From contig NZ_JAUFPS010000034.1 in assembly GCF_030409315.1 (NCBI RefSeq), positions 76,673 to 140,672 on the forward strand: a DNA stretch of 64,000 nt. Direction: 5' to 3'. Under the pieces are notes generated by a model. That model searched no databases. It was not told where the DNA came from and was given only the letters and a program-made list of their open reading frames with translations. The DNA is from Mucilaginibacter flavus (GTDB lineage Bacteria > Bacteroidota > Bacteroidia > Sphingobacteriales > Sphingobacteriaceae). The position numbers and the translations under genes are program-made. Below are positions 28,914 to 32,153 of this stretch, piece by piece (within the stretch, counting starts at the first letter, position 1; every line of letters begins with the position of its first letter).

Positions 28914-28943
28914 TTTGATAATTCATTTTTCTTTATAAATTTG
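28914..28943 (+). promoter_or_regulatory. trp operon promoter
   Basis: The -33 TTTG (28914-28917) and -7 TAAATTTG (28936-28943) are 18 bp apart, an exact Bacteroidota consensus. Transcription would start near 28950, right at the leader peptide ATG (28952). Confidence 0.8.
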
Positions 28944-28951
28944 TGACCTCA

Positions 28952-29020
28952 ATGATTAAAAACACACATACAAACATCTGGTGGCACCAATTAAATTTGG
29001 CAGCCGGGTATGTTTTTTAG
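28952..29020 (+). CDS. trpL: trp leader peptide with tandem Trp codons
   Basis: This 22-residue ORF has the order MIKNTHTNIWWHQ... and ends at TAG (29018-29020). Two adjacent TGG codons are at 28979-28984 (residues 10-11). It starts within a few bases of the predicted transcription start and is followed by a strong terminator before trpE. This is the layout of a ribosome-mediated attenuator: stalling at the Trp codons senses low charged tRNA-Trp. Confidence 0.85.
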   Translation: MIKNTHTNIWWHQLNLAAGYVF

Positions 29021-29088
29021 TCATAGATGATCTAATCAATTGTAAACCTAAGTGAAAACCCGGCGACCCCAATTCGCCGGGTTTTTTT
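29003..29088 (+). promoter_or_regulatory. trp attenuator (antiterminator/terminator switch)
   Basis: The terminator stem AAACCCGGCGA (29056-29066) and TCGCCGGGTTT (29074-29084) is followed by T-rich sequence. GCCGGGT (29003-29009), at the end of the leader ORF, is perfectly complementary to ACCCGGC (29058-29064), the 5' terminator arm, so it forms an antiterminator. ACATAC (28966-28971) can pair with GTATGT (29008-29013) as the protecting 1:2 stem. A ribosome stalled at the Trp codons frees 29003-29009; one at the stop codon covers it. Confidence 0.85.
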
Positions 29089-29115: not shown

Positions 29116-30525
29116 ATGAGCAACTTTAAAATAACAACTACTTATAAAAAGCTATTGGCCGATACCACCACGCCGGTAAGCATTTACCTGCGCCTGCGCG
29201 ATGTATTCCCCAACTCGCTGCTGCTGGAAAGCTCGGACTACCACAGCCGCGAAAACAGTTTGAGCTATATTGTTTGCGAACCTATTGCCGGCCTGGTGCT
29301 CAACAACGGCATCCTTAAAACACAATACCCCGATGGCAGCCAGGAAACCAGCGAAGCCGGGACCTTTGAGCTGATAGAGGAGCTTAATAAATTTGTGGGC
29401 AAGTTTGAAACAGACTCGCTCCCTGTAAAAATGATCACCAATGGCTTGTTTGGTTATTTCACCCACGAGGCTGTTGAACACTTTGAAACCATCAAGCTAA
29501 AAGATAGCGACGACGCAACCCGCCAGATCCCGGTGATGCAGTACCACATATACCGGTACATCATAGCGGTCGACCATTTTAAAAATGAGCTATACATTTT
29601 CCATAACCAGGCAGAAGGCGGACCAACCAACGGCGGTATCGAAAAATTAGAGTACCTGATCAAAAACAAAAACTTCCCCGAGTATAGCTTCAAAAGCAAT
29701 GGCCCCGAGCAATCGAACTTAAAAGACGAAGAGTTTATTGCCATTGTTGAAAAAATGAAGCAGCATATTTACCGGGGCGATGTTTTCCAGATCGTTCCAT
29801 CACGGGCATTTTCCCGCGCTTTTCAGGGCGATGAATTTAATGTTTACCGGGCTTTGCGCTCCATTAACCCTTCGCCATATTTATTCTACTTTGATTATGG
29901 CGATTTCAGGATCTTCGGCTCATCGCCCGAGGCGCAGATCACCATTAAAAACAAAGTGGCCAGCATTTTCCCTATAGCAGGTACATTTAAACGCAGTGGC
30001 GACGACGAAAAAGATGCCGAAATAGCCCGGGCTCTTGAAGCCGATCCCAAAGAATCGGCCGAACACGTGATGCTGGTAGATCTTGCCCGTAACGACCTGA
30101 GCAGGCATTGCGAACAGGTTGAAGTGAAGGCGTTTAAAGAAGTGCAATATTACTCGCACCTCATCCATTTGGTGTCGCACGTGAGCGGTAAACTATTACC
30201 TGCCGTCTCCTCTTTTAAAATTGTGGCCGATACCTACCCTGCCGGTACACTAAGCGGCGCGCCAAAATACAGGGCGATGGAGATCATTGACGAAAACGAG
30301 AAAACCAAACGCAGCTTTTACAGTGGCGCAATCGGCTTCATGGGCTTTAATGGCGATTTTAATCACGCCATCATGATCCGCTCCTTCCTCAGCAAAAACA
30401 ACACCCTGCATTACCAGGCCGGGGCAGGCATTGTAGCCGGCTCGGTTGCCGAAAGCGAGTTAAGGGAAGTGGATACCAAGATATCAGCGCTGAGAAGAGC
30501 TGTGGAGTTGGCGGAAGAACTGTAG
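29116..30525 (+). CDS. trpE: Anthranilate synthase component I
   Basis: This 469-residue chorismate-binding enzyme has LLES (residues 31-34), the Trp feedback site. Active-site motifs follow: GSSPEAQITIKN, PIAGTFKRSGDD, DLARNDLSRHC, TYPAGTLSGAPKYRAMEII and AGAGIVAGSVAESELREV. It makes anthranilate from chorismate with ammonia from TrpG. It is the first structural gene behind the attenuator. Confidence 0.96.
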   Translation: MSNFKITTTYKKLLADTTTPVSIYLRLRDVFPNSLLLESSDYHSRENSLSYIVCEPIAGLVLNNGILKTQYPDGSQETSEAGTFELIEELNKFVGKFETDSLPVKMITNGLFGYFTHEAVEHFETIKLKDSDDATRQIPVMQYHIYRYIIAVDHFKNELYIFHNQAEGGPTNGGIEKLEYLIKNKNFPEYSFKSNGPEQSNLKDEEFIAIVEKMKQHIYRGDVFQIVPSRAFSRAFQGDEFNVYRALRSINPSPYLFYFDYGDFRIFGSSPEAQITIKNKVASIFPIAGTFKRSGDDEKDAEIARALEADPKESAEHVMLVDLARNDLSRHCEQVEVKAFKEVQYYSHLIHLVSHVSGKLLPAVSSFKIVADTYPAGTLSGAPKYRAMEIIDENEKTKRSFYSGAIGFMGFNGDFNHAIMIRSFLSKNNTLHYQAGAGIVAGSVAESELREVDTKISALRRAVELAEEL

Positions 30526-30602: not shown

Positions 30603-31175
30603 ATGAGCAAAATATTAATAATAGACAATTACGATTCTTTCACCTATAACCTGGTGCATTTGGTTAATGAGCTTGGCCTGCAATGCGAGGTTTGGAGGAA
30701 CGATAAATTCTCGCTGGAGGATGTGGACGCTTTTGATAAGATCATCCTTTCGCCGGGCCCGGGCATACCATCTGAGGCTGGTTTGCTATTGGATGTAATT
30801 GAAAAATACGCGCCAACCAAAAGTATTTTCGGTGTGTGTTTAGGCCAGCAGGCTATTGCCGAAGTTTTTGGCGGCAGCTTGTATAACCTTAGTCAGCCAA
30901 TGCATGGCATAGCCACGCCCATAAAAGTCACCGATAAAAGCGAGCAGTTGTTTAAAGACCTACCCGAAAGCTTTAAGGTAGGCCGCTATCACTCATGGGT
31001 GGTAAGCAATGATGGGCTGCCTGAAACATTACAGGTTACCGCCATTGACGAGGCTGATAATTCCATCATGGCGTTATCGCACAAGGAATATGACGTGCGT
31101 GGTGTACAGTTTCACCCGGAATCTATCCTTACCGAGTTTGGTAAAGAAATGATGGGCAACTGGTTAAAGGCGTAA
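30603..31175 (+). CDS. trpG: Anthranilate synthase component II (glutamine amidotransferase)
   Basis: This 190-residue class I amidotransferase has catalytic Cys79 (GVCLGQQ), His172 and Glu174 (FHPES), and the oxyanion loop SPGPGIPSEAG. It supplies ammonia to TrpE. It could also serve PabB, as in many bacteria with one shared amidotransferase. It lies 77 bp after trpE in the same orientation. Confidence 0.95.
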   Translation: MSKILIIDNYDSFTYNLVHLVNELGLQCEVWRNDKFSLEDVDAFDKIILSPGPGIPSEAGLLLDVIEKYAPTKSIFGVCLGQQAIAEVFGGSLYNLSQPMHGIATPIKVTDKSEQLFKDLPESFKVGRYHSWVVSNDGLPETLQVTAIDEADNSIMALSHKEYDVRGVQFHPESILTEFGKEMMGNWLKA

Positions 31176-31370: not shown

Positions 31371-32153
31371 ATGACCATACTTGATAAAATAGTTGCCAAC
31401 AAAAAAAAGGAAGTAGCTTACGCTAAAAAACGTACATCATACGTAGAACTTGAAGAATCTGATTATTTCCATAGAGAAACCTATTCATTCAAAGATTTTT
31501 TGCTTGATCCAACCTGCAGCGGCATTATTGCCGAGTTTAAGCGCAAATCGCCATCAAAGGGTATTATCAACGATAAAGTTAGGGTAAGCAAAGTCACTAC
31601 CGACTACGCCGCCGCGGGCGCTTCTGCCCTATCGGTACTAACCGACCGCAATTTTTTTATGGGTCGCAAAGCCGATTTAAAAAGGGCACGTTCTGTAAAC
31701 ACCATCCCCGTTTTGCGAAAGGATTTTATGATAGATGAGTACCAGGTAATTGAAGCCAAAGCCTTGGGTGCCGATATCATCCTGCTCATTGCGGCCATCC
31801 TTACCCCCGCCGAAATTGATAAAATGGCCACCCTTGCCAAAAGCATTGGCCTTAACGTACTGCTGGAAGTACACAATCTGGAAGAACTGGAGCGTAGCAT
31901 CCACCCCAAACTTGACGCTATCGGTGTAAATAACCGCAACCTGGCCGATTTTACCGTATCTGTGGATACATCATACCAACTGGCCAAACATATCCCCGCA
32001 GAGTTCCTTAAAATATCCGAAAGCGCCATCAGCGATCCCGAAACCATCAGGCATTTAAAATTAGCCGGCTTTAACGGCTTTTTAATTGGCGAAACATTTA
32101 TGAAGCAGGCTGATCCAGGGCAGGCGATGAAGGATTTTGTGGCGCAGTTGTAA
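31371..32153 (+). CDS. trpC: Indole-3-glycerol phosphate synthase
   Basis: This 260-residue TIM barrel has IIAEFKRKSPSKG with the catalytic Lys, VLTDRNFFMG, VLRKDFMID, LLEVHN, IGVNNRNL and ISESAI. It closes the indole ring from carboxyphenylaminodeoxyribulose phosphate. It is monofunctional; no TrpF domain is fused. It follows trpG by 195 bp of repeats, and no trpD, trpF, trpB or trpA follows. Confidence 0.96.
   Translation: MTILDKIVANKKKEVAYAKKRTSYVELEESDYFHRETYSFKDFLLDPTCSGIIAEFKRKSPSKGIINDKVRVSKVTTDYAAAGASALSVLTDRNFFMGRKADLKRARSVNTIPVLRKDFMIDEYQVIEAKALGADIILLIAAILTPAEIDKMATLAKSIGLNVLLEVHNLEELERSIHPKLDAIGVNNRNLADFTVSVDTSYQLAKHIPAEFLKISESAISDPETIRHLKLAGFNGFLIGETFMKQADPGQAMKDFVAQL

Follow-up and report, generated by a model that had tools for sequence, protein, structure and literature searches.

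A predicted ribosome-mediated attenuator upstream of trpEGC in Mucilaginibacter, with a leader start codon close to the predicted 5′ end and a linker complementary to a candidate small-RNA family

The trpEGC leader of Mucilaginibacter

The region upstream of trpE in a soil Mucilaginibacter very probably encodes an attenuator that controls transcription of the trpEGC operon through a ribosome on its leader ORF and responds to charged tRNA-Trp, as judged from sequence comparison and modelling. Attenuation of the E. coli type is very well supported by the parts of the element, their conservation, covariation and modelled pairing; the transcription start site, the translation of the leader and the dependence on tryptophan are what we infer from there on. 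The stretch of DNA that was analysed (hereafter the window, 64,000 nucleotides) carries, in this order, a promoter, a 22-codon leader with TGG-TGG, segment 2, a terminator and trpEGC. The initial annotation had noted the promoter and the leader ORF and placed the TGG TGG pair, segment 2 with its complement, the terminator and the stop codon, and all of its coordinates proved correct on direct reading. The features are as follows.

28914-28943, plus strand: promoter, with the -33 element TTTG (28914-28917) and the -7 box TAAATTTG (28936-28943) 18 nt apart; read directly
28948-28949, plus strand: predicted transcription start, 3-4 nt 5′ of the leader ATG, placed from Flavobacterium box-to-start distances
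28952-29020, plus strand: leader peptide ORF MIKNTHTNIWWHQLNLAAGYVF, 22 codons followed by the stop codon TAG (29018-29020); read directly
28979-28984, plus strand: tandem Trp codons TGG TGG, unchanged across all 40 aligned Mucilaginibacter leaders
28978-29007, plus strand: predicted 1:2 hairpin, with a CUGGU/GCCGG outer stem that includes the Trp codons and a CCAA/UUGG apical stem; from folding and covariation
29003-29009, plus strand: segment 2, predicted partner of 29058-29064 in the antiterminator (2:3); from complementarity, cross-genus comparison and modelling
29032-29051, plus strand: single-stranded linker CTAATCAATTGTAAACCTAA between segment 2 and the terminator, complementary at 20 of 20 positions (two of them G-U) to a small-RNA core
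29054-29086, plus strand: terminator hairpin (3:4) of 13 pairs, with 5′ arm ACCCGGCG (29058-29065) and 3′ arm CGCCGGG (29075-29081)
29082-29088, plus strand: T-run of the terminator; read directly
29116-30525, plus strand: trpE, anthranilate synthase component I; by HMM
30603-31175, plus strand: trpG, glutamine amidotransferase of anthranilate synthase; by HMM
31371-32153, plus strand: trpC, indole-3-glycerol phosphate synthase; by HMM

The end of the attenuator lies 28 nt from trpE, and trpG and trpC come next. The best matches of this trpE are NCBIfam TrpE equivalog models, though its scores fall under their cut-offs; among the genomes of the collection, the trpE of M. dorajii is closest to it (99%). 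Two hallmarks of an attenuator are thus present, namely, a short leader ORF with at least two clustered Trp codons and an intrinsic terminator before the first trp gene. The latter, annotated initially at 29056-29084 plus a T-run, was detected independently as the 13-pair hairpin listed above, with its T-run reaching 29088. Folding of the leader region gave a z-score of -5.2, none of 200 shuffled sequences being as good.

To assess conservation, the window was compared with 80 trpE loci from public genomes, for a total of 81 Sphingobacteriaceae upstream regions (64 from Mucilaginibacter and 17 from other genera, the set also used for the pairing model). All 81 showed an in-frame Trp pair or triplet near the ATG (L077 was assigned by hand) as well as a terminator hairpin with a T-run. 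The Trp codons are adjacent in 73 leaders and arranged as Trp-x-Trp in eight from Pedobacter. The distance from the ATG to the first of them is 21, 24, 27 or 30 nt; indels in this spacer thus come in multiples of three and keep the reading frame. In the leader alignments, the ATG is invariant and the frame is preserved across these indels. Beyond the Trp codons, neither the sequence nor the length of the peptide is conserved, an indication that translation itself, rather than its product, is what matters. The tandem Trp codons, which the initial annotation expected close relatives to retain, were present in all of them.

Covariation and modelling of the switch

Structural conservation was examined in an alignment of 40 distinct Mucilaginibacter leaders. 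Over the terminator and the 1:2 hairpin, 96.6% of the aligned pairs were standard, six pairs had changed on both sides, and the covariation score was reached by none of 500 shuffles; versions of the pairing slid along the same alignment collapsed in this test. The apical stem of the 1:2 hairpin, just 3′ of the Trp codons, takes many alternative yet complementary forms between species, with compensatory changes at three of its four pairs.

For the antiterminator, direct reading bore out the observation that GCCGGGT (29003-29009) is the exact complement of ACCCGGC (29058-29064). This 7-bp form is special to the present lineage, as only 4 of the 40 Mucilaginibacter leaders form the sixth-base pair. 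The conserved 2:3 core in Mucilaginibacter is GCCGG/CCGGC, which is so nearly invariant that 2:3 covariation among the 40 leaders is uninformative. Complementarity between segment 2 and the arm was found about 50 nt from the ATG, at a near-constant offset in most leaders. Across genera, segments 2, 3 and 4 mostly change together. Twelve leaders have the arm CCCGAC or CCGAC; all 12 carry a U in place of C in segment 2, and most of them also carry a U in the 3′ terminator arm. In leaders of the CCCG[G]C type, segment 2 mostly has a C, with a U in two from Pedobacter (L072 and L075). This cross-genus change amounts to a few events on the tree, not 12 independent ones. When arms were swapped between the two types, the leader's own arm was preferred in 68 of 69 G-type leaders and in 7 of 12 A-type leaders. 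The latter tolerate both arms through G-U pairs, so the compensatory case rests on base identities. In a few leaders (L064, L074 and L077), 2:3 pairing is weak, for L074 also in the modelling described below. Taken together, covariation of the segments, proposed initially as a check on attenuation, was found for the terminator within the genus and for segments 2, 3 and 4 across genera.

The switch was next modelled from the partition function of the nascent RNA, with a ribosome placed on the second Trp codon and masking about 12 nt beyond it. In the 64 Mucilaginibacter leaders, the median probability of 2:3 pairing was 1.0 with the stalled ribosome versus 0.08 for naked RNA, and in the 17 leaders from other genera the corresponding values were 0.80 and 0.23. 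The window's own naked-RNA probability was 0.61, plausibly because of its 7-bp form; this may give the window a leakier switch than its relatives have. The three mutually exclusive pairings of an attenuator (1:2, 2:3 and 3:4) are hence all predicted here, 2:3 through the cross-genus comparison and the modelling.

In the mechanism proposed from these elements, RNA polymerase would begin a few bases 5′ of the leader ATG and a ribosome would load on the nearly 5′-terminal AUG. Under scarcity of charged tRNA-Trp, this ribosome would stall at codons 10-11 and mask segment 1, leaving segment 2 (29003-29009) free to pair with segment 3 (29058-29064); 2:3 pairing would then block the terminator and allow trpE to be transcribed. 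With plentiful tryptophan, the ribosome would pass over segment 2 towards the stop codon at 29018-29020 and the terminator (29054-29088) would form. If the leader were not translated, the 1:2 hairpin would occupy segment 2, and the terminator would form as well. The initial annotation had a ribosome terminating at the leader stop cover segment 2. The stop is close enough to segment 2 for this in the present genome, but its exact placement varies among close relatives, in which the leader has 18 to 27 codons and the stop lies 4 to 31 nt beyond the start of segment 2. In the longer leaders, the stop is far enough past segment 2 that a ribosome waiting there would leave it uncovered.

The terminator could also act as a constitutive brake beside an incidental small ORF, with read-through either fixed or set by factors other than tryptophan. 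An upstream terminator alone would indeed reduce trpE expression. However, such a brake gives no reason for in-frame Trp clusters in all 81 leaders, for a compensatory 1:2 hairpin overlapping the Trp codons or for the modelled switch, and the same genome carries a WWW leader with a terminator before trpD and a His-rich leader before hisG. We thus consider a constitutive brake highly improbable, and translation-dependent attenuation the far better account of the trpEGC leader.

Other leader peptides in the same genome

The second Trp leader of this genome, MKMNTLNNNWWWLNEIS and a stop codon, precedes trpD and has its own terminator (L091:2574-2695, minus strand), so that trpEGC and the trpD operon would be under separate attenuators. 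This leader gives a weak, sub-threshold match (41.8 bits) to the Bacteroid-trp RNA model RF01692. In Sphingobacteriaceae, the RF01692 matches that were inspected are this second leader before trpD. They were considered as possible instances of the window's element and rejected, none of the eight loci holding trpE.

Upstream of hisG, on the minus strand of L092 at about 2250-2170, lies the His-rich leader ORF, MNGIALHHLHLHHHHVVIS and a stop codon. A TATATTTG-like box precedes it by roughly 35 nt. This leader is a candidate his attenuator, without an obvious strong terminator.

A leader start codon close to the predicted 5′ end

An exact TAnnTTTG was found 4-10 nt before the leader ATG, most often at 8 nt, in 78 of 81 leaders, compared with 9 of 281 (3%) other intergenic starts from the same loci. 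Furthermore, 66 of the 79 leaders having an exact -7 box carry TTTG exactly 18 nt upstream of it. The -7 box was measured at -12 to -5 in F. psychrophilum (PMC9723704), and the spacing from box to start is 4-5 nt in F. johnsoniae (PMC6847099). From the position of the box and these Flavobacterium distances, the 5′ UTR is predicted to be 0-6 nt long, with 3-4 nt for the leader in the window. The comparison therefore upholds, as a prediction, the very short 5′ UTR of the initial annotation, while its start about 2 nt before the ATG is better placed at about 3-4 nt.

We also weighed whether the leader ORF could have a normal 5′ UTR from another promoter further upstream, the closeness of box and ATG being coincidental. 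Very short UTRs are a minority in the phylum, leaderless mRNAs amounting to 5.5% in F. psychrophilum (PMC9723704) and 5′ UTRs under 10 nt to 3.7% of mRNAs in B. thetaiotaomicron, which speaks for such a promoter; the enrichment of the box at 4-10 nt over other starts and the recurrent -33 TTTG speak against it and make it unlikely. The near-5′ start codon thus remains the favoured reading. The his leader of the same genome does not have the near-5′ box arrangement.

In a wider sample of the phylum, Trp-rich leaders were present in 48 of 60 distinct trpE upstream regions, of which 13 had been selected through RF01692 and a few others were cut by contig ends. The box lies at most 10 nt from the ATG in 31 of the 46 leaders with a recognisable box, a count in which the start was picked among in-frame ATGs by the best box, favouring its detection. 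Leaders of the Flavobacterium type have the box 16-20 nt before the ATG, giving a predicted 5′ UTR of about 12-16 nt. In distant members of the phylum (L117-L121), a WWW trpE leader was seen close behind a TATCTTT box, with the peptide MRHVAYHSAHY(F/Y)GWWW... in L118-L121. The presence of a near-5′ Trp leader in such distant members suggests that the arrangement is old or recurrent.

Attenuation requires prompt loading of a ribosome behind RNA polymerase. Since Bacteroidota hardly use Shine-Dalgarno pairing, a leader AUG predicted near the 5′ end across much of the phylum offers a concrete candidate answer to how this ribosome is loaded.

A conserved linker complementary to a candidate small-RNA family

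Among Mucilaginibacter leaders, the linker at 29032-29051 shows an identity of 0.91, compared with 0.69 and 0.64 for its flanks, and is conserved almost to the level of the stems. It had no pairing partner in the leader states modelled. When the linker was used to search the genome, designated G000, in which the window occupies C28:76673-140672, one element was matched in three copies, each on the opposite strand.

G000:C28:59178-59247 (L172): small-RNA family copy, core and terminator
G000:C10:6020-6081 (L159): small-RNA family copy, core and terminator
G000:C31:44134-44194 (L162): small-RNA family copy, core and terminator

The element consists of a 24-nt core, TAATTTAGGTTTATAATTGGTTAG, followed by a terminator, and from its sequence looks like a conserved RNA gene. 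The core was found in 60 of 61 Mucilaginibacter genomes, where it sits in the trailer of a tRNA-Leu-like RNA and in stand-alone genes; structure prediction leaves it unpaired. In Parapedobacter, 14 copies share an unchanged core, while their promoters and terminators differ. The family had no match in Rfam, and a literature search on the core sequence and on Mucilaginibacter small RNAs returned nothing relevant.

Several observations concern the genes that carry the core. The tRNA-Leu-like RNA (L172 and L221-L247) was not recognised by ARAGORN or by the Rfam tRNA model; its acceptor-like TGTAGGA/TCCTACA is compensated to TGTTGGG/CCCAACA in L181, and it often stands behind a similar tandem copy. 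Stand-alone copies (L266-L285) carry the terminator and are preceded by a conserved palindrome-like TTAGTGTTACTTTTACACC, or TAGTGTAAAAAATACACTA in Parapedobacter, which is possibly the binding site of a regulator. Between two tRNA-Leu-like genes of a Pedobacter (L249), AATCAACCTAAACCAAA resembles the Pedobacter trp-leader linker ATCAACCTAAACCAAA in the sense direction.

The conserved block of the linker coincides with the block complementary to the core. In 58 of 64 Mucilaginibacter leaders, at least 20 of 22 positions pair with the core, and the median linker-core duplex energy over the 64 is -26 kcal/mol versus -6.5 for shuffled sequences. Among distinct linkers, 46 interior changes are G-U-compatible with the core versus 16 incompatible, the first two and last positions of the table being excluded from this count. 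Genome-wide statistics were based on pattern searches. With the element itself excluded, no site in the 6.96-Mb genome other than the linker can pair fully with the core, and the rest of the 64-kb window contains no 20-mer that is fully pairable with the leader in any register. Across the genus, trpE leaders are the only recurrent core match among the sites inspected, with a reversed-pattern control of about 0.6 per genome. The remaining core-complementary sites that were inspected lie in coding sequence or are scattered and resemble chance matches, and a link between the core and susC 5′ ends, suspected from one match, was unsupported in the window. We also set aside the linker as a DNA operator or an opposite-strand promoter: it lacks a promoter consensus, and with a partner located in a tRNA-like trailer, RNA pairing is the simpler reading.

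These data raise the prospect of a trans-acting layer compatible with attenuation, in which the linker would pair with the small-RNA core and the small RNA would tune the attenuator, or the terminated leader would act as a sponge. The complete pairing in the window, its singularity in the genome and, among the sites inspected, in the genus, and a core that is widespread, unpaired and, in stand-alone copies, framed by a palindrome and a terminator argue for it. Against it, a central pair is broken by CAAATG or CAAATA in 11 of 64 leaders, and no co-evolution of the core with these variants was seen, the core being unchanged in the genomes checked. Moreover, the core stays invariant even in genera without a matching trp leader, which indicates that its main job is elsewhere. 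On balance, we hold such a layer to be possible and somewhat doubtful. If it exists, the Mucilaginibacter trp attenuator could tentatively be viewed as an RNA-RNA hub with a multi-copy small RNA that comes in part from a tRNA-Leu-like trailer; amino-acid attenuation would then be linked to a conserved tRNA-linked small RNA, and the trp leader would be the first candidate target of this family. The attenuator reading itself is unaffected, the two being compatible.

Relation to known trp leaders

Leader-peptide trp attenuators have already been predicted in Bacteroidota, so the class is not new: Bacteroid-trp (RF01692) was described as a cis-regulatory candidate by Weinberg et al. in 2010 (PMC2864571) and called Trp-leader-like before the F. 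psychrophilum trp operon (PMC6414381). Any novelty of the present element would come from the leader start codon predicted close to the 5′ end and from a linker that could pair with a candidate small RNA. RF01692 matched one family among 148 genomes of the phylum, taken as Flavobacteriaceae, and lies directly before trpE in those genomes of the family that were also searched for trpE. In the window, it gave no match at the gathering threshold (49 bits) or among matches up to an E-value of 10, and the trpE leaders of ten relatives gave none either. An Rfam scan of the leader by E-value returned sub-threshold matches to unrelated families only. Trp_leader (RF00513, cut-off 41 bits) had no match in the window; one relative's leader (L066) scores 28.4 bits. 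The RNA model thus misses the Sphingobacteriaceae branch, and trp control in this family is under-annotated.

Like Bacteroid-trp, the window's element has a Trp-codon leader peptide and a downstream terminator upstream of trp genes in Bacteroidota. It differs in that the leader of most species carries WW or WxW in place of WWW, the predicted 5′ UTR is near zero rather than about 12-16 nt as in Flavobacterium, and the Mucilaginibacter leader has an extra conserved linker. The F. psychrophilum transcriptome gave clues to leader-peptide attenuation at amino-acid biosynthesis operons in the same phylum (PMC9723704); such attenuation was deduced from transcriptome data, in work that covered F. psychrophilum and not Sphingobacteriaceae. 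In Sinorhizobium meliloti, the Trp leader ORF of trpL/rnTrpL is leaderless, and the terminated leader RNA has been shown experimentally to act in trans (PMC7298713). The present leader is similar in its ORF at or near the (here predicted) 5′ end and in a possible trans role; unlike in S. meliloti, this role is predicted from base pairing and the partner is another small RNA, and no sequence relationship is claimed. In Bacteroidota, leaders are not expected to rely on Shine-Dalgarno pairing (PMC6847099).

With E. coli trpL (RF00513), the element shares tandem Trp codons in segment 1 and exclusive 1:2, 2:3 and 3:4 pairings. In E. coli, trpL is preceded by an ordinary 5′ UTR that contains a ribosome-binding site, and the leader ORF stops before segment 2, whereas here the stop lies past segment 2. 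Taken together, these comparisons provide good support for the window's element as a divergent, E. coli-like branch of a known kind of attenuator.
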